From a virus, in IMG/VR virus record IMGVR_UViG_3300045776_000066, positions 1 through 37,481 of that record: a DNA stretch of 37,481 nucleotides; one strand, written 5' to 3'. A program made the position numbers and the translations under genes. Of the stretch, positions 3,439 to 30,528 are shown one piece after another (position 1 is the first letter of the stretch; every line of letters starts with the position of its first letter). The notes under the pieces were generated by a model. It searched no databases. It was not told the DNA's origin and saw nothing but the letters and a program-made list of their open reading frames with translations.

Positions 3439-5093
3439 ACAATCGCCGCTTGGGGCTTCAACACCGATCTTATGACCGCACGGATGGTCGCCCATACCTC
3501 ATCGCCGTCCAAATCCGCCATGCACTGCGCGACGCCGCGCTCGGGGTGCTGCTTACAGTGCTCCCACGAGTAGTGGAGCATGTGGCAGGCGGGCGCCTCG
3601 TTCGCGCCGCGACCTGGGCAATGAGTGATGGAAGAAGCCACCGAGGTGGTATTGACCCAGTCGCGGCAGAGGTTCTCTTCGGTGCTGTGCGACAGGACCA
3701 AAACCTTGGGCTGCGGCAGCTGACTCATGGCGTTCATGACTCCGGTTTCAGGACCAATGCCCACATCCACAAACTCCAACAGGCTCATGGTCTCGCGAAT
3801 GCTGTACTTGCCAGAACGCGGCTTGACCCGCGGTTCGTGCTCCCACCCCTGCTCGAGGATTTGCGCATCCGCGCCACCCACAAGCACCACATGGGCGGTC
3901 GGAAATTCCACCATGATGGAGGCAATCGTGGCATCCAGTCCGTCCCAGGTCTTATGCACGGAAGAACCCGCCAAGGCCCACAGAATGAGCGGAGCCCCTC
4001 CCAGGCGTGCGCGTTCGGCCTTGGCCCAGTCAACCTCCGACTGCCGAGGGAAAAAGCGCACTTGGGGCTTGTGCGGGATCCCTGCGATGAGGTGAGCAAG
4101 CTCCACATAATTGTGGTTCATGTACTTGTGCCGCGCGGCCGGCGACCACAGGTGTGGCGTCTTGCCAGGAATCGACAAGAGCGAACCTTCAACGGATTCG
4201 GAAAGATTCACCCACTTGTCAAACTTTTTGGCGTGATAAGACCAAAAGTCACCCAGCATGTGGTTTGGAACTTGATCCTTGTCCTGCAGGTAGAACTGAT
4301 CGATGTTGGGGTCGAATTCGATTACAGTGTGCCCCGGTGGGCTCGTGAACAGGGTGACGTGATAACCCTGCGCTTTCAAACCCGCAGCCACCGAGCTCGT
4401 CTGCAAAAGATCCCCAAAAGCGCCGTAGCGCACGATTGCGGCAGTTTTCCTTGGCTTTGGCTGGTTCCACGAAAAATGACAGCCGCCGCGGCGCTTCTGA
4501 AACACGAAGTAAAGTGAGTATTCGTGCTCTTGGTGGCGGGTTTGAAAGTCGATCAGATCCCAGCCGTGGCCGGTTTCTTTCATGAGCTTGACCACCCTCT
4601 CATAGCTCACGTTCCACGCATGATCGGGATTGGCGCCCGGTTCCCCCACTTTGGGGTACTCATTTTCATCGGGCACGTAAAGGATCAAATACCCGTCGGT
4701 TTTTAAAACCCGCAGCCACTCTTTGAGAGCTTCGCCGGCGGTGTGCTTCTCAACGATCATCCGCTCGGCGAGCGCGCGCTTGACGGGATCTGCATCTTTT
4801 TTAGGTTCCAAACGCTCCAGCGGTATGTGCTCAAGGAGGTGGCTCGAGAACACGAAATCCATGGAACCCGACGCAAACATGGGCAAATCTGCGGCCGATT
4901 CGACCCAAATATCAGCATTCACCGGATGGTTGAAAAGAGCTCGATCTTTGCCGCTATCCACACCAATAAAATGCGGAAAGGTCTTCTGCATCCCGCAACC
5001 TAAGTCGAGTCCTCGGCCGCGAGTCCACTTGACGATCTCCCACTTGATCTTGCCCGATTCGTTCCCCAAGGGCCCGTCGATCTTCCATACCAT
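3435..5093 (-). CDS. Methyltransferase-glycosyltransferase family 9 fusion
   Basis: This is a 552-residue two-domain protein. Residues about 1-200 look like a class I SAM-dependent methyltransferase: motif I GLDLGCG (28-34), an acidic strand end (GVDSG), DFVFSSHLLEHI as the post-motif region, then LRVLKTDGYLILYVPDE. Residues about 218-552 resemble GT9, the ADP-heptose:LPS heptosyltransferase family: AAIVRYGAFGDLLQTS at the N-terminus, ILWALAGSSVHKTWDG, AHVVLVGGAD and VDVGIGPETGVMNAMSQL. A Cys/His-rich tail follows (HCPG, CHMLHYSWEHC). It is encoded among tail genes, 13 bases after the preceding stop. The acceptor is unknown: host LPS, a virion glycan or another substrate are all possible. Confidence 0.8.
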   Translation of the reverse strand: MVWKIDGPLGNESGKIKWEIVKWTRGRGLDLGCGMQKTFPHFIGVDSGKDRALFNHPVNADIWVESAADLPMFASGSMDFVFSSHLLEHIPLERLEPKKDADPVKRALAERMIVEKHTAGEALKEWLRVLKTDGYLILYVPDENEYPKVGEPGANPDHAWNVSYERVVKLMKETGHGWDLIDFQTRHQEHEYSLYFVFQKRRGGCHFSWNQPKPRKTAAIVRYGAFGDLLQTSSVAAGLKAQGYHVTLFTSPPGHTVIEFDPNIDQFYLQDKDQVPNHMLGDFWSYHAKKFDKWVNLSESVEGSLLSIPGKTPHLWSPAARHKYMNHNYVELAHLIAGIPHKPQVRFFPRQSEVDWAKAERARLGGAPLILWALAGSSVHKTWDGLDATIASIMVEFPTAHVVLVGGADAQILEQGWEHEPRVKPRSGKYSIRETMSLLEFVDVGIGPETGVMNAMSQLPQPKVLVLSHSTEENLCRDWVNTTSVASSITHCPGRGANEAPACHMLHYSWEHCKQHPERGVAQCMADLDGDEVWATIRAVIRSVLKPQAAIV

Positions 5094-18185: not shown

Positions 18186-18739
18186 GATTTCTCTCCTATT
18201 AGTCGAGACGCGAATTGCTCTCGCATACTTTGAACTTGGGCGCGCAGCTGAGCGATCGTGTCCGCTTGGCTGTCAAGCTGCTCTTGAATTATCGAATCCT
18301 TGTGCCGCACGGCCTCCAATTCTCTATCGGACGGGGCAGTCGGCGCGATGCCTAACCGATCAAGCGCGGTATCGCCCTGGGTGTCTGACTTGTGTGGGTC
18401 GATCCCTCGAGCTTTGAGGACTAGCTGGATCTGCTCGGCCAAATGATGAACCAGCTTTTCCAAGTTGGCGATTACCCCCTCTGACCGCGCGCCCATGGTG
18501 TAGCGCTGATATTCAAGCTCGCGGCGTATCGGATCTATACCCTTATCTCGGAACTCACCCAACTCTGCATTCAGTTTGGCGATATTTTCCTTGAACCCAC
18601 GGAAATCGCTCTGTATTGAGCCAATATCCTGTTGCACCCGCGACAAAGCGGTGGATGCGAGAAACTCCGCCGCCATACGCTCAACGACATTAGTTTGCTG
18701 AGTTGCAGAGGTCAATTGCATGTCACCCGGCTGTTTCAT
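18182..18739 (-). CDS. Coiled-coil hypothetical protein
   Basis: This is a 185-residue, almost entirely helical protein. Two long heptad regions are visible: residues about 35-110 (IGSIQSDFRGFKENIAKLNAELGEFRD onward) and about 140-180 (ELEAVRHKDSIIQEQLDSQADTIAQLRAQVQSMREQF). A Pro/Gly/Asp-containing break with DPHKSDTQGDTALDRLGIAP separates them. Both ends overlap neighbours by ATGA. Function is unknown; it could be a structural or DNA-associated scaffold. Confidence 0.6.
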   Translation of the reverse strand: MKQPGDMQLTSATQQTNVVERMAAEFLASTALSRVQQDIGSIQSDFRGFKENIAKLNAELGEFRDKGIDPIRRELEYQRYTMGARSEGVIANLEKLVHHLAEQIQLVLKARGIDPHKSDTQGDTALDRLGIAPTAPSDRELEAVRHKDSIIQEQLDSQADTIAQLRAQVQSMREQFASRLIGEKS

Positions 18740-19362
18740 TCAATCGCCTCCATTGCCGTAACTGGGTGATCCAGATCCAAAGTATCCCAAGTGTCGAGCA
18801 AATAGGATCGACATCCAGCGACAAAACCGGATTGAACCACGGCGGGGTCCTTCGAGACCACAATGCAGTTGGACAAGTTAAGCATATAGCGCTTTGCAAT
18901 CTGCTGCAGGAGCCCAGGACGAGGCGCACGGCAGACGCACCCTTCATGGGCCTCATGCTGGCAGGTCTTAAAACTCGTAAGCCGGGCGCCTAAAGCCTTG
19001 GCGCGGTAATAAAGCGCTAAGTGCATATCGGAAAGTGTGAATAGATCGACAAATTGGCCGTGCACCTTCTCATCGTTCAGAATGACGTGCGGTTGATAGC
19101 CGATGGACTCAAAGCGCCTGAGCGCGTCAATAGCACCTGGCACCCAAGGAATGACCCGAATCTCATCTACGGTCGACGGGCGCGGAGGTCGGTCTTCGAC
19201 CAACGTTCCATAAATGTCGACAAAAACTGCCATGTCATTGGGCGGTGGCATTGATTCCAAAAGTCCCAATTTTTTGACGAGCCCGGGCCCGCTTCCATGG
19301 GTTGTACCACAATACTTGGACTTTAGCCTTGATTGGAGGGACCAGCGTGTTCTAGCGCTCAT
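18736..19362 (-). CDS. GmhB-like HAD-superfamily protein, catalytically degenerate
   Basis: This is a 208-residue protein resembling the D,D-heptose-bisphosphate phosphatase branch of HAD enzymes. Motif I is VFVDIYGTLVED: nucleophile Asp49 is kept but the acid/base Asp of DxDGT is Tyr51. The zinc loop of that branch is intact (C134, H136, C142, C144 in CQHEAHEGCVCRAPRPG). Motif IV, normally GDxxxD, reads VVSKDPAVVQSG, so both Mg-binding Asp residues are missing. Normal phosphatase chemistry is therefore unlikely and a binding or regulatory role is more probable. The ATG at 19362 overlaps the upstream stop; a shorter start at Met38 is also possible. Confidence 0.75.
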   Translation of the reverse strand: MSARTRWSLQSRLKSKYCGTTHGSGPGLVKKLGLLESMPPPNDMAVFVDIYGTLVEDRPPRPSTVDEIRVIPWVPGAIDALRRFESIGYQPHVILNDEKVHGQFVDLFTLSDMHLALYYRAKALGARLTSFKTCQHEAHEGCVCRAPRPGLLQQIAKRYMLNLSNCIVVSKDPAVVQSGFVAGCRSYLLDTWDTLDLDHPVTAMEAIE

Positions 19363-19902: not shown

Positions 19903-20099
19903 TCGTTGCTATCCTTCGCAATTCCGCTGAAATAGCGGCCGAGCTCCTCCCGAACGATCAACCGAATGGCGTAAAGCTTTGCTTCGGTTCTCGTTTGCTC
20001 GAAAATCGAGCACGCGCAGAGCGGCGCCGGAGCCGGGTATTCTGGATTGTGCATAAACGGTAAGCCGCACCAATCACAGGGCTTGTATTCGTCACTCAT
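19899..20099 (-). CDS. Small Cys-rich putative zinc protein
   Basis: This is a 66-residue protein. The ATG at 20099 overlaps the preceding stop (ATGA), so I preferred it to a longer upstream frame. CDWCGLPF and LCACSIFEQ form a CxxC...CxC arrangement that could bind zinc, followed by an amphipathic helix (AKLYAIRLIVREELGRYF). No family is recognised. Confidence 0.6.
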   Translation of the reverse strand: MSDEYKPCDWCGLPFMHNPEYPAPAPLCACSIFEQTRTEAKLYAIRLIVREELGRYFSGIAKDSNE

Positions 20100-20365
20100 G
20101 CTTTTGACTCCAAGGGCAGGGGGCGAGCGTGCTGTTCGCATATCTCTTTAGCTTTATCTGCAGTCAACAGACGGTGACCTATCACCGTGTCGGGCTTGCG
20201 CTTGGCCGTGTAGCGAGTGGCATCGCCCTCGCCATGGCGATCAATTACGAATGTGTCGCAGTGCGACTCAATTCTATGCTCGGTAACTTTTTTCCAGCGC
20301 AACGTTGTGCGCTCTTTCGGGAAGTTTTTCCTGATCTTCGCTCTGACTTGTTCCAGCGTATCCAT
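20096..20365 (-). CDS. Hypothetical small protein after the repeat genes
   Basis: This is an 89-residue basic protein with ATG at 20365, nine bases after the last repeat gene. It looks alpha/beta: EQVRAKIRKNFPKERTTLRW, VTEHRIESHCDTFVIDRHG, then a C-terminal helix TADKAKEICEQH. No motif is recognised. Its stop overlaps the next gene (ATGA), making it part of the left early operon. Confidence 0.55.
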   Translation of the reverse strand: MDTLEQVRAKIRKNFPKERTTLRWKKVTEHRIESHCDTFVIDRHGEGDATRYTAKRKPDTVIGHRLLTADKAKEICEQHARPLPLESKA

Positions 20366-20374
20366 GTGATTCTC

Positions 20375-20665
20375 TCAACTGGTTTGACCCGGGTAACTAC
20401 ATAAGTCCCCGTCCCCGTACCCTGACCCGTACCCGTACCCGGACCCGGACCCCCCGTACCCATACCCGTACCCATACCCTTCCCCGGACCCGGACGACCA
20501 GTACCCGGACCCGGACCCGGACCCGGACCCGTCCCCGTACCCGTCCCCTGACCCGTACCCGTACCCGTACCCGTACCCGTACCCGTACCCGTACCCGTCC
20601 CCGTACCCTGACCCGTACCCGTACCCGTCCCCGTACGCTGCAATTGGCAATTTGCTTGAGTTCAT
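20375..20665 (-). CDS. YG/SG/DG-repeat protein, copy 3
   Basis: This is a 96-residue low-complexity protein. It has a conserved head (MNSSKLPIAAYGDG), about 70 residues alternating Gly with Tyr, Ser or Asp around a YWSSGSG core, and a conserved tail (CSYPGQTS). The coding strand is nearly pure GGGNNN, giving other open frames of RV and GT repeats. The frame chosen is the one in which head and tail are shared by three copies. Start context AATCTGGGAAATCAC is identical in copy 2. Function is unknown; a flexible adhesive or condensate-forming protein is conceivable. Confidence 0.7.
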   Translation of the reverse strand: MNSSKLPIAAYGDGYGYGSGYGDGYGYGYGYGYGYGYGSGDGYGDGSGSGSGSGYWSSGSGEGYGYGYGYGGSGSGYGYGSGYGDGDLCSYPGQTS

Positions 20666-20685
20666 GTGATTTCCCAGATTTTCTC

Positions 20686-20982
20686 TCAACTGGTTTGACC
20701 CGGGTAACTACATAAGTCCCCGTCCCCGTACCCTGACCCGTACCCTGACCCGTACCCGTACCCGGACCCGTACCCGGACCCGTACCCGTACCCGTCCCCG
20801 GTCCCGGACCCGTCCGCGTACCCATACCACGCGGACCCGGACCCGGACGACCAGTACCCGGACCCGTCCCCGGTCCCGTCCCCGGACCCGTACCCGTACC
20901 CGTCCCCGGACCCCGCGTACCCGTACCCCGCGTAGCCGTACCCGTCCCCGTACGCTGTAATTGGCAATTTGATCGAGTTCAT
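20686..20982 (-). CDS. YG/SG/DG-repeat protein, copy 2
   Basis: This is a 98-residue paralogue beginning MNSIKLPITAYGDG and ending CSYPGQTS, 20 bases before copy 3. The repeat body has an AGYGYAGSG variant near the start and the core YWSSGSGSAWYGYADGSG shared with copy 1. The same frame stays open upstream to an ATG at 21333, so a 215-residue product is formally possible. The identical 15-base leader before the internal ATG in copies 2 and 3 argues for the short form. Confidence 0.65.
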   Translation of the reverse strand: MNSIKLPITAYGDGYGYAGYGYAGSGDGYGYGSGDGTGDGSGYWSSGSGSAWYGYADGSGTGDGYGYGSGYGSGYGYGSGYGSGYGDGDLCSYPGQTS

Positions 20983-21347
20983 GTGATTTCCCAGATTTTG
21001 CGCAGAACTCCAGCCCTTTCCCCCTCTTGGTGCTACCAAGCAGGTGTACTCGGGTCCCCTCGTCCATCGTTTGGACGCCCCAGTGAGGGCCGGGTCGCAA
21101 GTGGCACAGCGTTGCCCGGGTAACCGTTTCTTGAGGGTCAGGCCGGTTTCAGCCGTCATCTTTCGTGCCTCAGACGGGTGTAAGAGGGCGCCGACTGCAG
21201 GAATAGCTGGATTTCTTGAGGCTTTTTCGGTAACAATGATTGCACCGAATAGCGCCTTCTCCGCAATTCCGGGAGTCGAGACTGACATCTCGCACCAGAG
21301 GCCCCTTGCGGGGCTTCTGCGTTTATGGACCATGTAGGCTCATTCTG
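20983..21347 (-). other. 365-base spacer between repeat copies 1 and 2, possible ORF
   Basis: This stretch separates two repeat genes that are otherwise tandem. It holds an in-frame extension of copy 2 from an ATG at 21333 (about 117 residues, Arg/Ala/Gly-rich, containing SVSTPGIAEKALFGAI). There is no good Shine-Dalgarno site, and I do not recognise a family. A near-perfect hairpin (21296-21319) lies just inside that frame. It may be an inserted gene, a leader, or a remnant. Both strands are open here, so coding status is uncertain. Confidence 0.4.
21296..21319. other. Ten-base-pair hairpin
   Basis: CAGAGGCCCC-TTGC-GGGGCTTCTG forms a 10-bp stem (one G-T pair) with a four-base loop. Neither strand has a following T tract, so it is not a standard terminator. 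It could be an attenuator, RNA-processing or protein-binding site in the left operon. Confidence 0.5.
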
Positions 21348-21611
21348 TCAACTGGTTTGACCAGGGTAACTAGATCCATACCCGTACCCGGAACCGGACC
21401 CGTCCGCGTACCCATACCACGCGGACCCGGACCCGGACGACCAGTACCCGGACCCGGACCCGGACCCGGACCCGTCCCCGTACCCGTCCCCGTACCCATA
21501 CCCATACCCGTCCCCGTGCCCATACCACGCGAACCAGTACCCGTCGCCGGACCCGGACCCGGACCAGTCCCCGTCCCCGTACGCTGTAATTGGCAATTTG
21601 CTTGCGTTCAT
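21348..21611 (-). CDS. YG/SG/DG-repeat protein, copy 1
   Basis: This 87-residue protein is the first of three paralogues. Its ATG at 21611 overlaps the stop of the upstream gene (ATGA), which fixes the Gly-Tyr frame as the translated one. The head is MNASKLPITAYGDG and the tail SSYPGQTS. Unlike the other copies it has extra aromatic inserts (DGDWSG, YWFAWYGHG). The core YWSSGSGSAWYGYADGSG is shared with copy 2. Dispersed Gly-Tyr/Ser/Asp repeats also occur in other phage hypothetical proteins, from memory. The role is unknown. Confidence 0.7.
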   Translation of the reverse strand: MNASKLPITAYGDGDWSGSGSGDGYWFAWYGHGDGYGYGYGDGYGDGSGSGSGSGYWSSGSGSAWYGYADGSGSGYGYGSSYPGQTS

Positions 21612-21916
21612 GAAACGGCGAACATGTCGACCCAGTTCTTCGGATCAACATCCAATGCTGCGATTAAGGCGTGCCGAGGTACTGTTACGGTGCCGGCGCG
21701 ATCAAGCTTGGTTTTCTCTGTGGGACCGGATAAAGCGAGCTGTCCTATCCCGTCCGTGGTTCCCCAAAAACGTATGCAATGCGCACGTTCGATGAAAAAG
21801 AAATCGTCGACCGACTTTTTAATGAACCCAATGAAAACCCAGCCGCGATCCAAAATAATGATTTTTAAATCGCCGTCCAATTTTGTCGGCTGTTCCACTC
21901 TCTTTGCTTTAACCAC
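21608..21916 (-). CDS. Conserved phage hypothetical protein (DUF6948-like, tentative)
   Basis: This is a 102-residue protein, with ATG at 21916, nine bases after the repressor gene. The pattern KIIILDRGWVFIGFIKK, then ERAHCIRFWGTTDGIGQLALSGPTEKTKLDRAGTVTVP, matches a recurring small phage protein that I recall next to Gly-Tyr-repeat ORFs. I am not certain of the DUF number. It looks like a compact beta domain with a C-terminal helix. The function is unknown, and it is tightly coupled to repeat copy 1. Confidence 0.7.
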   Translation of the reverse strand: MVKAKRVEQPTKLDGDLKIIILDRGWVFIGFIKKSVDDFFFIERAHCIRFWGTTDGIGQLALSGPTEKTKLDRAGTVTVPRHALIAALDVDPKNWVDMFAVS

Positions 21917-21925
21917 GTTACTCTC

Positions 21926-22135
21926 CTAATGATTGGGATAAATATCCGGCCTTAAATCGTGCCGGCTGACTCCGGTAAGGCGCTCAATGACGAGCACCTT
22001 ACGCACCGGAACGCCACGAGCTCGCCACGAGCCCAAAGTCGACTGAGCGACACACAGCTTGTCACAGGCGGCCACAAACCCGCCCAACGCCTGAATCGCT
22101 TTCTCAAGCGCATCTCGCGGTGTCTTTTTGCTCAT
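21926..22135 (-). CDS. Cro/YdaS-like repressor
   Basis: This is a 69-residue helix-turn-helix protein of the YdaS/Cro type. A helix EKAIQALGGFVAACDKL precedes the recognition region VAQSTLGSWRARGVPV, and the family-typical end is VLVIERLTGVSRHDLRPDIYP. It lies divergent to the right operon and next to operator dyads, the layout of a lambda-like switch regulator. No Shine-Dalgarno sequence precedes the ATG, and the predicted transcript would start only a few bases upstream, so leaderless translation is possible. No separate, larger CI-type repressor is visible. Confidence 0.85.
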   Translation of the reverse strand: MSKKTPRDALEKAIQALGGFVAACDKLCVAQSTLGSWRARGVPVRKVLVIERLTGVSRHDLRPDIYPNH

Positions 22136-27124: not shown

Positions 27125-29812
27125 TTAATCGCCTAATCGCTCCAAAACGACGCACGAGGCATTCTCAAGCGTCATGTTTTGACCGATCGATTCGGCTATT
27201 ACTTGAATGTAATCGGTGACGTTGGTGATCGGTAAAATCATACAAGCAGAAATGGTGTAATTCTGTGACGCGGCCGTGGGTGTAATGTGAGCCACAAATT
27301 GATTGCTGGCCGATGTCGCGCCATTCACGGACGGGAACAAAAATAAATCCGTCGCGGCAGATCCTGTTGTCTGCAAAACCAAGGTCGAGGTCACCTTGTA
27401 TCGTCCGGCCGGAAGTCCTATAAATTTGTACGTTCCGGAATTGTAGACCCCATAATCATCGATAAGCCCGGTTGAGCCAAATTGCACGGCGGCGGGGGTG
27501 CTCGATGTCAATGTCTGCGTGGTTCCTAGCAACGCATAGACAAATGGCTGATTGACGGGCGGACAATCGTTGTAAGCGCCGGAAGAAGGAAGATTAGTCC
27601 GCACATTTTCTCGGCTTATCTTGCCCGAGGTCGTCAAACATGCGCTAGCTGGCGTGATTAAGTCTCGAAGGTCGATATTTCTGAGAGTGTTGTCACCAGT
27701 GAGAGAGGACCCACCGGAAACGGACATGGTGTAAGCGGTTGAGCGGTTGGTCTCTTGGAACGCTCGGACGTTCGAAATGATGTTTCCGTAACCTATAATT
27801 CCAAAAATGTTGAATCCGCCAAAATTGTTATAGCCATTTTCTCTCAAAGTGATTCCGTTCATCACTGAGTTGGTGATCACCGCATAAATGGCCGCGCCGG
27901 CGTTGTATTCACACACTAAACCGTTCACCGACCATCCCCAGCCGGTGTACGCCACGGCGCCCAACGGGTGCCATGCCGCATAATCGCCGCTCGATGACGA
28001 CATCGCGGTGTTGTATCCGACTTGACCCGATCCCGCGTTAGATTCGTAATTGAACGCGCCCTGGAAATTCGCGACGCAGATATTGCCTACAGAAACGATG
28101 CCGGTGCAGCCGTCAAAATAGGTAGAATTATTGGAACTCCCGATGCTTTGATAGCTCTCGATCCCTGAATCTCCGCACCCATACACGTAATTGTGCTCGA
28201 CTCGAGGCTGATCCTGCCCCATGAGCATGATGCCCTCAAAGGCGTGCTCGCGAATCCGATTGCCCAACGCCGCGTTGGCGATCGATCGGCTAGTGGTAAA
28301 ATTCAAATAAGCAATTGCGCCCCAGGTCCAACCGCCTTTTAGATCACAGTTGCGCACCGTGTTGTAACTGCCGCCCTGAAACAGTATTGAGATAAACTTG
28401 GCGGTGACGTTTTCGACTACGCAATGATTGCCTAAAATCGACAGCACCGGACCTATTTGCGACGCGGTTTTCTGCGCGCTCGACATGCTGGCCCACATTG
28501 CATCGTTGACGGATGGCGGCCGATAGCCGTCATTCAGAGAATTGGTGAGCGCCGAGGTGGTCAGTGCCGTGTTGGTCACCAGGCTGAAGAACTCCACCGG
28601 CAGTTGAGTGCTCCAATAGGTGGCATTAGTGGGTAATGTGCCCGCAGAGCTTGCCAAGATGCACAGGTACTGCGAGCCGCTATAGGCGACAATGTTTCCC
28701 GGGACATAATTGGTGCCTGAACTCCAAGTTGGTGCGGCCGAACATCCGTTGTTTAGCGTGATCGTGGTGCCGGACACACCAATGACCGTGGTGGAATTCC
28801 ACAGACAAGGTCCCATGGCCCGCTGCCCTACCGCGATTCCCGTCGCGCTCGCCACGGTGATGGTGGCCGAATTGGAAACACACACCGCGGTTGTCTGGAT
28901 GTTGTTTACCGTGATGAATTGCGCCACCAGCGGCACGCTAATTGGCGCGAAATTGACCCCGCCGATGTAGCTGTAATCGCAGTTTGTCAGCGTCAAGATG
29001 AAACCGTCACAATACAGTGTTCCCGTTCCGGTCATCGTGATGGCACCGGATCGAGTGGTGCCTGTCACCACCTTGAATGACCAACCCGGCGCCACATACA
29101 CAGTCCCGGTCAAGACCGCAGTTGCAAAGGCGCTTGAGTCGTCGGTCGACGGTATCCCGGCGCTGGTGGCGCCGCCCACCCCGCCATACCGGCGCGGGTC
29201 GCCTGGTTGATAAAACAGGTTGGAAGGCGTCACCCCGGCGGCCGTTTCCTGCGGCGTAACCGGATACACCGACACCGCCTGATTGCTGATCAACTGCCAT
29301 GAGCTTCCAAGCCACTCAAAAAGGTAGATTCCGCCGGCAATTAAAGCGTTGGCGGTCAAGGTGCTGCTCGACGGGGTGCGCACCGTCTGCGCCCCCGTCG
29401 AATTCAAATTGAGCGTGGTCGATCCAGTGTTGGTGTTGGCAACCAACACTTGTATCTTGAGCCCCACATAAAGACCCGCAGGGTAGGCCGAACTCGTGAT
29501 CACCAAGGTGTTCGCGGTGCCTGTGTCGGTCGCATAAACAAAGCCCATGGGGTCGAGCATTTGCACCGGGCTTTTCGTCTTGTAGAGCGTCCCCTTGTAG
29601 TAATAGGAAAGGGTATAGGCGCCATCTGGCACGTAAAAGCTGATCTGTCCAGTGATATCCGAAATGACCGTCGAGGCTGCAATCGGGCTTGCAACCGAGT
29701 TGCTCGAGTAGATCGACGCGGCGGTGCCTCCCGGGTAGGTGGTCACTACGCAGGTCGCCCCGTACAGGCTGTTGCCAGAATCGTCCGTCAGGGTCTCAAA
29801 ATACTGCAGCAT
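27125..29812 (-). CDS. Beta-helix tailspike / tail fibre
   Basis: This is an 895-residue protein starting at the ATG at 29812 (AAGG seven bases upstream). An N-terminal small domain (LQYFETLTDDSGNSLYGA, VVTTYPGGTAASIYSSN) is probably the anchor. At about residue 230 the RYGGVGGAT...TDDSSAFATA pattern resembles the start of pectate-lyase-type right-handed beta-helices. Parallel coils follow to about residue 720: HCVVENVTAKFISI, YNTVRNCDLKGG, GNRIREHAFEGIML, PRVEHNYVYGCGDSGIES. A beta-sandwich tip (YKFIGLPAGRYKVTSTLVLQ) closes it. It likely binds and possibly cleaves a surface polysaccharide; no catalytic residues can be named. Confidence 0.8.
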   Translation of the reverse strand: MLQYFETLTDDSGNSLYGATCVVTTYPGGTAASIYSSNSVASPIAASTVISDITGQISFYVPDGAYTLSYYYKGTLYKTKSPVQMLDPMGFVYATDTGTANTLVITSSAYPAGLYVGLKIQVLVANTNTGSTTLNLNSTGAQTVRTPSSSTLTANALIAGGIYLFEWLGSSWQLISNQAVSVYPVTPQETAAGVTPSNLFYQPGDPRRYGGVGGATSAGIPSTDDSSAFATAVLTGTVYVAPGWSFKVVTGTTRSGAITMTGTGTLYCDGFILTLTNCDYSYIGGVNFAPISVPLVAQFITVNNIQTTAVCVSNSATITVASATGIAVGQRAMGPCLWNSTTVIGVSGTTITLNNGCSAAPTWSSGTNYVPGNIVAYSGSQYLCILASSAGTLPTNATYWSTQLPVEFFSLVTNTALTTSALTNSLNDGYRPPSVNDAMWASMSSAQKTASQIGPVLSILGNHCVVENVTAKFISILFQGGSYNTVRNCDLKGGWTWGAIAYLNFTTSRSIANAALGNRIREHAFEGIMLMGQDQPRVEHNYVYGCGDSGIESYQSIGSSNNSTYFDGCTGIVSVGNICVANFQGAFNYESNAGSGQVGYNTAMSSSSGDYAAWHPLGAVAYTGWGWSVNGLVCEYNAGAAIYAVITNSVMNGITLRENGYNNFGGFNIFGIIGYGNIISNVRAFQETNRSTAYTMSVSGGSSLTGDNTLRNIDLRDLITPASACLTTSGKISRENVRTNLPSSGAYNDCPPVNQPFVYALLGTTQTLTSSTPAAVQFGSTGLIDDYGVYNSGTYKFIGLPAGRYKVTSTLVLQTTGSAATDLFLFPSVNGATSASNQFVAHITPTAASQNYTISACMILPITNVTDYIQVIAESIGQNMTLENASCVVLERLGD

Positions 29813-29820
29813 GGCGAACC

Positions 29821-30528
29821 TTACGCAAGCGTGTAGGCGAACGAGCCTGAAAAAAGGCGCTTCGTGCCCGAGCTCGTCCAAGCCTGGGCGGTGTTATTGG
29901 GCGTGAGGCTTACCGTAGTCCCGCCCGTTGAGCTCGGGATCGTCATCGTGCAGCCGAGCCCCAAGGTGGTGTTGTCTTCGCACGCCAAGAGCGGCGATTG
30001 CGCCACCTTGGTGACGCCTTGCAAATAATACGGGAAACCAGTAAAGCCAAAAGCCGTGCTATTCGATGTCAAGGCGCCGGTGTCATCCCAGCTCAAAACC
30101 ACCAAACCGCTATTCACCGAACCGGAGGTCACATAGCGAAAATTGACTGAAGCCGCCGTCTGCACTCCCGTGACCGCCATGGAAAAGGTGCCTGAGTTGA
30201 CGGACGCGATCGCCGGGTCTCCAATACCGCCCATGTTGTCTAGGACATCTAACTGATTGCCCGCCGCATCAAATGCCACAAACTTAACCAGCGTTCCGGA
30301 CGGAATCCAAAAAGCCACCGGCGCCCCCGAAGCCGACACAGGCCTGCCTGACGATGACAGGGTCATGGGATTCGGGTTCGCTACCGTCCCAGTATTGTCC
30401 GTGTAGGTCGTCACCTGGGTGGTCGTGCCCGCAATGTAGGTGTAGATCGACCCGCCGGCGGCCATCACCCCAATGTTGGTGAACCATTGGGGAATGAATG
30501 ACATGGGGAGCAAAAAGAGCGTGCTCAT
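29821..30528 (-). CDS. Tail-fibre N-terminal/anchor-like protein
   Basis: This is a 235-residue protein with ATG at 30528, one base overlapping the ATP-grasp stop and GGAGG eight bases upstream. The N-terminus FTNIGVMAAGGSIYTYIAGTTT then TYTDNTGTVANPNPMTLSSSGRP is the head-binding/anchor pattern of podovirus fibres and tailspikes. A beta-rich C-terminal half (SVNFRYVTSGSVNSGLVVLSWD) could bind the tailspike that follows eight bases later. It looks like an anchor split off as its own gene. Confidence 0.7.
   Translation of the reverse strand: MSTLFLLPMSFIPQWFTNIGVMAAGGSIYTYIAGTTTQVTTYTDNTGTVANPNPMTLSSSGRPVSASGAPVAFWIPSGTLVKFVAFDAAGNQLDVLDNMGGIGDPAIASVNSGTFSMAVTGVQTAASVNFRYVTSGSVNSGLVVLSWDDTGALTSNSTAFGFTGFPYYLQGVTKVAQSPLLACEDNTTLGLGCTMTIPSSTGGTTVSLTPNNTAQAWTSSGTKRLFSGSFAYTLA

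Follow-up and report, generated by a model that had tools for sequence, protein, structure and literature searches.

Genes of alternating glycine follow DUF6948, a predicted Sm-like protein, in a widespread phage module

What kind of product is encoded by a phage gene that reads almost throughout as glycine alternating with tyrosine, serine or aspartate, and why should three such genes lie in a row? The question is raised by IMG/VR virus record IMGVR_UViG_3300045776_000066, the whole 37,481-nt stretch of which we call the window. Its minus strand carries three of these genes, termed GX genes here: copy 1 at 21348..21611 (87 aa), copy 2 at 20686..20982 (98 aa; the longer ORF up to 21333 is unnecessary) and copy 3 at 20375..20665 (96 aa). 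Their translations, which begin MNASKLPITAYGDG, MNSIKLPITAYGDG and MNSSKLPIAAYGDG, respectively, and end in SSYPGQTS, SYPGQTS and SYPGQTS before the stop, bear out a preliminary description of the locus as three paralogues with a conserved head (MNxxKLPI[AT]AYGDG) and tail (SYPGQTS) and a common YWSSGSG core. The head-to-tail body measures 66-77 residues, close to the 60-75 given in that description, and corresponds in each copy to one of three 6-bp arrays of 33-38 copies found by TRF. Within the arrays, unbroken alternation with glycine reaches 23 positions; elsewhere in the window the maximum is 5, and 50 shuffled versions of the window never exceed 6.

The 17 nt 5′ of the ATG are common to copies 2 and 3, and in both the stop is followed by GAGAA, which marks these two as products of a tandem duplication with bodies that diverged afterwards. 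The 17-nt block, AAAATCTGGGAAATCAC, is identical at 20983..20999 and 20666..20682 (minus strand) and is a possible ribosome-binding site as well as a mark of the duplication. The claim that the family is kept in several versions also holds outside the window, where tandem arrangements of two to four GX genes at 18 loci point to recurrent duplication. A close parallel is locus L080, with four GX genes in a row about 22 nt apart and a single head type (MERIDNG/MERIGDG/MERIDDG). The C-terminal [FY]PGxTS of the window's subtype is kept in phages L103-L106.

Since all three reading frames are free of stops across the window's arrays, the window alone cannot fix the frame, and it is the relatives that do so. 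Within GX arrays, frames 0, 1 and 2 contain 0, 12 and 237 stops, respectively, and off-frame composition varies by lineage. Among 114 distinct GX proteins the dominant glycine codon is GGC in 83, GGT in 16, GGG in 11 and GGA in four, and serine is encoded by TCN in most lineages and by AGC in eight. The residue at the X position is Ser (33%), Tyr (29%), Asp (24%), Asn (4%) or Phe (3%), with Lys and Arg at 0.2% each, and with His and Cys, each one base from the Tyr codons, below 1%. In eight close Pectobacterium/Dickeya phages the GX genes span 162-270 nt and differ in length by multiples of 6, the heads being near-identical and free of frameshifts; the genes of two Rheinheimera Barba isolates differ by one TACGGC unit. 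Frameshifts or stops in relatives, which the preliminary description had named as the outcome that would count against a protein, did not appear: the frame is kept in those eight phages and in five Rheinheimera phages, with length changes in multiples of 6 nt, and in distant lineages the residues are preserved although the codons differ. These comparisons show that the repeat is conserved as protein and that Lys and Arg are excluded from it, and on the same sequence evidence we regard the window's three repeat genes as genuine protein-coding genes. In one GX ORF with an internal RVRVRV (L208, 9428-9746), two compensating frameshifts or assembly errors could bracket part of the array.

Copy 1 starts at an ATG (21611-21609) that overlaps, as ATGA, the TGA ending the gene upstream (21610-21608), the overlap by which its frame had been said to be locked to a conserved phage gene. 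That gene (21608..21916, minus strand, 102 aa) proves to be of DUF6948 type. Its product has no Pfam match at E<=0.1, and hence none to PF22253 above the gathering score. In a related phage whose terminase is 84% identical to that of the window (L003), the homologous product matches DUF6948 weakly (E 1.6e-4; 22.1 bits against a cut-off of 27), and its gene is likewise followed by a GX ORF. In Dickeya phage Setonix and MW202898 the genes 5′ of GX ORFs match DUF6948 strongly (Pfam E 6e-31 and 4e-33), the values with which L010 and L008, respectively, pass the PF22253 cut-off. When a profile of eight window-type proteins was aligned with one of 60 DUF6948 proteins by hhalign, homology was detected over 81 columns (E 9.4e-6, probability 82.7%), and the order of strands and helices is the same in the structure models of the two. 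We therefore treat the upstream gene as a divergent branch of DUF6948, joined to it through profile comparison alone. R7, A11, G12, V13 and G16 are invariant in the 60 DUF6948 proteins and R32 and R33 nearly so, each of the three arginines being present in 58 or more; of the adjacent pair, the window protein has retained just one. The median net charge of DUF6948 is +1, which is not strongly basic.

DUF6948 is an already named domain of unknown function, for which Pfam gives neither a role nor a partner; the pairing with GX genes and the Sm-like fold emerged here. DUF6948 loci were fetched by sequence: 80 of 540 from viral contigs, 65 from bacterial or archaeal genomes and eight of the window subtype. 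Among the 137 with at least 150 nt downstream, to which the count was limited, 125 have a [Y/S/D]G-repeat ORF beginning at the DUF6948 stop or close to it, most commonly 12 nt before the last base of that stop and so overlapping it (83 loci). Most of the 12 exceptions show degenerate Gly-rich frames by eye, and GX arrays more than 1 kb from DUF6948 number eight in 394 kb. The association also holds in reverse: when 43 viral loci were found with a codon-degenerate pattern of the repeat alone, DUF6948 lay just 5′ in 37, and five of the other six begin at a contig end. The linkage to the upstream gene envisaged in the preliminary description is thus seen from both sides, and adjacency and overlap of the two genes are near-obligate across the loci sampled. 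The window has the same arrangement, a DUF6948-type gene followed on the same strand by [YSD]G-repeat ORFs, and here the second gene of this widespread phage module is present in three tandem copies. That the partner is DUF6948, with a predicted Sm-like fold, and that the pairing is near-universal had both been missed.

The sole true orphan GX gene of the reverse search is in L200 (~3690-3918, reverse strand, with AGC for Ser), and a few DUF6948 genes have no GX gene. In L002 (5031-7471), tandem paralogues combine another folded head (xxSLSVTREHIRDALLCGACKE...RGRVPLWA) with GX bodies and the tail AVLPSPTQ; no DUF6948 was detected with them. L101 has two seemingly identical occurrences of one GX gene, at +42..+242 and +1554..+1754 from the DUF6948 stop, 1.5 kb apart, as a result of duplication or assembly redundancy. 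OX376640 (L009), in which a Thr-Gly repeat lies inside a larger gene, was rejected as a member of the family. Direct searches were of little use: the window's head and tail, sought as exact degenerate DNA patterns, gave no matches in viral contigs, the head of this subtype being local, and tblastn of a GX protein against phages gave none either, low-complexity sequence being masked by BLAST, so that GX genes would pass for orphans in an ordinary search.

The pair occurs in cultured phages, namely the eight Pectobacterium/Dickeya phages, Vibrio phage IKEMa6-1, Iodobacter phage PhiPLPE, Chlorobiaceae phage CV-1-33, Rhodobacter phage RcapNL and the Rheinheimera Barba phages; for the last, 115 records have a DUF6948-type gene, and all five inspected have the GX gene. 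Neisseria gonorrhoeae genomes also carry the pair; in one (L226, NZ_CP119142.1), DUF6948 is found in three places on a 2.17-Mb replicon, evidently a chromosome, that is filed as a plasmid in PLSDB. The phages and prophages concerned span Proteobacteria, Bacteroidota, Firmicutes, Acidobacteria, Cyanobacteria, Chlorobi and others, a range in which host names derived from metagenome-assembled genomes, archaeal ones above all, may be binning errors.

Existing annotation obscures these genes in several ways. Database entries give the GX arrays of L021 (2361-2606, gene25 of Chlorobiaceae phage CV-1-33) and L020 (1475-2077) in an incorrect reading frame (MAMAMALAM...), and in the latter the array lies 5′ of DUF6948 and is fused to it via a false start. 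Another phage GX protein (L219, 1746-2060; MW202613) is annotated as ‘lamprin’, by compositional similarity. Lamprin is a lamprey cartilage protein which, like silk fibroin, consists of Gly-rich alternating repeats; the likeness is one of composition only, and unlike these animal proteins the phage GX proteins are small and acidic with Tyr, Ser or Asp at X. A weak low-complexity match to phrog_10432, for which no function is given, was obtained with the long ORF of copy 2 (E 0.0013) and the Setonix GX protein (E 0.06), and Pfam matches to TrAA12 were rejected as weak, below the cut-off and compositional. In loci of Bacteroidota/Firmicutes type (L137, L139, L149, L156, L201, L214, L215 and L022) the ORF continues past the repeat into a conserved domain of about 130 aa (..IDxIPTII..WHHxLTGSCxxGRxxF..YGGxxI..), which, in the loci tested, had no match in Pfam, PHROG or NCBIfam.

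If the partner is so constant, its nature should bear on what the GX protein does. The AlphaFold2 model of DUF6948, like the others built as a single chain, has a mean pLDDT of 98.0, and all 50 of the PDB matches listed by Foldseek are Sm/Lsm or snRNP/spliceosome chains with probability 1.00 (E 3e-3 to 2e-2, TM ~0.5-0.6). For the window's own protein (pLDDT 89.1) the best PDB match is 3BY7 (E 7.1e-4, TM 0.51-0.71 over its chains), followed mostly by Lsm and Sm chains, the top matches again having probability 1.00. 3BY7 is a solved structure, of cyanophage origin, that is described as similar to Sm/Lsm-like RNA-binding proteins and is ~16% identical to the window protein; we know of no GX partner and no function for it. 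DUF6948 is thus predicted to be an Sm/Lsm-like beta barrel, at E-values that are modest overall (7e-4 to 2e-2). Small beta barrels have many functions. Pfam and NCBIfam scans gave no LSM or Hfq family match, so that membership is by predicted fold and not by sequence, and a sequence search found no solved structure for DUF6948.

The neighbourhood of the pair suggests a role early in infection. In 126 neighbouring proteins the largest named PHROG families are RecE-like and other exonucleases, Sak4, RecT, Erf, SSB and DnaB, and Pfam concurs (YqaJ, RecT, ERF, AAA_24, DnaB), which indicates an early recombination/replication setting in other phages. The window differs in detail: its neighbours include a repressor-like gene, a resolvase-like gene and a terminase, and no recombinase. 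The DUF6948-type gene starts 9 nt after a repressor/Cro-like gene of the YdaS family (21926..22135, minus strand; PF15943 E 8.9e-9; phrog_35 transcriptional repressor E 2.5e-11), probably the first gene of the operon. In RcapNL, too, a repressor gene precedes the pair, with two genes between. Expression of GX genes from the repressor promoter, as first suggested, is therefore plausible from gene order in these two phages; the promoter-like site 5′ of the window's repressor-like gene is a weak match. The next gene downstream (MDTLEQVRAKI..., 20096..20365, minus strand) is conserved in relatives L003 and L005, and its L003 homologue lies just 5′ of the DUF6948-type gene. Elsewhere on the window's minus strand, a 208-aa ORF at 18736-19362 (VFVDIYGTLVED) looks by eye like a HAD-type phosphatase and has no Pfam match, and a 918-aa protein at 27128-29881, probably a tail spike, combines a beta-helix region with a CBM_5_12-like carbohydrate-binding stretch.

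With regard to composition, GX proteins are Gly-rich, ~14% aromatic and strongly acidic: across 93 proteins the median net charge is -9, 96% are negative and the median protein has one Lys or Arg. They are expected to be disordered. We put at roughly 0.4 the probability of the explanation that we prefer, in which DUF6948 is an Sm-like nucleic-acid binder and the GX protein its acidic partner, acting in trans. DUF6948 would bind single-stranded nucleic acid, RNA or ssDNA, through the conserved arginines R7, R32 and R33, and the acidic, Tyr-rich GX protein, made from the same message, would bind the DUF6948 surface, itself or both. The GX protein would then amount to a disordered Sm-protein tail delivered as a separate molecule, a tail that could screen non-specific binding, recycle the ring and concentrate the complex, presumably during early phage DNA and RNA metabolism. 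The comparison is with Hfq, whose acidic disordered tail binds the basic Sm rim in competition with RNA and DNA (PMC5606850), and which also binds ssDNA, affecting replication and recombination (PMC10392684). The likeness is one of working parts, an Sm-fold core with an acidic disordered polypeptide (PMC5606850); the tail of Hfq, however, is covalent and not a dipeptide repeat, whereas GX is a separate and often duplicated gene and DUF6948 has no sequence match to Hfq or LSM. Rather more tentatively, the pair may represent an undescribed two-gene system of tailed phages from many phyla, a split counterpart of Hfq in which an Sm-like binder acts early in infection with a separate, rapidly re-arranging, pure acidic [Tyr/Ser/Asp]-Gly polypeptide that serves as detachable tail or condensate former.

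The main rival, which is compatible with the Hfq-like reading, would make the GX protein a condensate scaffold that self-associates through Tyr stickers and gathers DUF6948 with phage recombination and replication factors, any regulation of an Sm ring being secondary. In the composition of the 93 proteins and their X-residue counts we find a repeat of aromatic stickers and flexible spacers, with glycine at every second residue and Ser or Asp between, and GX length varies freely while composition is kept; a sticky or phase-separating protein, as the preliminary description surmised, is thus plausible. Genes for SSB and annealing proteins are among the neighbours, and bacterial SSB itself condenses (PMC12143593). 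As the leading explanation, however, a scaffold seems unlikely, because acidic repeats repel one another and some copies are very short (23-35 aa).

More doubtful is a counter-defence or anti-host decoy, in which the acidic repeat would mimic nucleic acid or clog a host factor and the copies would be maintained as variants. The strong negative charge with almost no basic residues, the recurrent tandem copies with diverged bodies and the wide spread in cultured phages and bacterial genomes would suit such a role, but a near-constant partner gene is unexpected for a stand-alone decoy and composition hardly changes from host to host over many phyla. Nor did the anti-host role floated in the preliminary description gain ground from comparison with known anti-phage defence proteins, since PADLOC gave no match at E<=0.1 and the neighbours are recombination and replication genes.

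An effect on Rho-dependent or intrinsic termination is improbable to a still greater degree. Its precedent is Rof, an Sm-like fold that can act without being an RNA chaperone (PMC11018626), and the repressor gene ahead of the pair in the window and RcapNL would accord with it; replication modules, however, often contain the pair as well. We give very little credence to a silk-like virion protein with a structural or adhesive role in tails or at the cell surface. The resemblance of Gly-X to silk and lamprin, with one copy so annotated, and the tail fibre gene adjoining the pair in Pectobacterium phages are set against a pair transcribed opposite to those tail genes, mostly recombination and replication genes among the named neighbours, and no signal peptide evident by eye. 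Last and least probable, a conserved DNA- or RNA-level element (here GGGTAC/GGGTCC/GGGGAC hexamers, capable of G-quadruplex formation) with an incidental ORF was rejected as largely refuted on codon evidence, because the GGG bias that favours it in the window (GGG makes up 94 of 101 Gly codons in copies 1-3, against 17% in the window's long genes) fits founder expansion of one hexamer, with homogenization by repeat expansion, and other lineages encode the same protein with GGC, GGT or GGA and either TCN or AGC serine, have a frame 2 full of stops, and keep the start overlap.

We are aware of no system in which an Sm-like protein is paired with a dipeptide-repeat protein that stands alone, and we therefore regard the module as new, its function being a proposal. 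Among open-licence papers we found no literature on DUF6948, DUF7666 or GX repeat strings, and the Barba phage paper, when searched by term, gave nothing on repeat or glycine-rich genes. Because the repeats are nearly devoid of Lys and Arg, trypsin-based proteomics would miss GX proteins, and this blindness, together with some wrong-frame annotations, may be why they have been overlooked.

Overall, a near-pure Gly-Tyr/Gly-Ser/Gly-Asp protein appears to be kept by amino-acid selection beside one particular fold, and a domain of unknown function is now linked, by prediction, to the Sm fold. Rhodobacter phage RcapNL and the Rheinheimera Barba phages offer tractable systems, and the hundreds of natural GX sequences represent a resource for learning the roles of low-complexity polypeptides.
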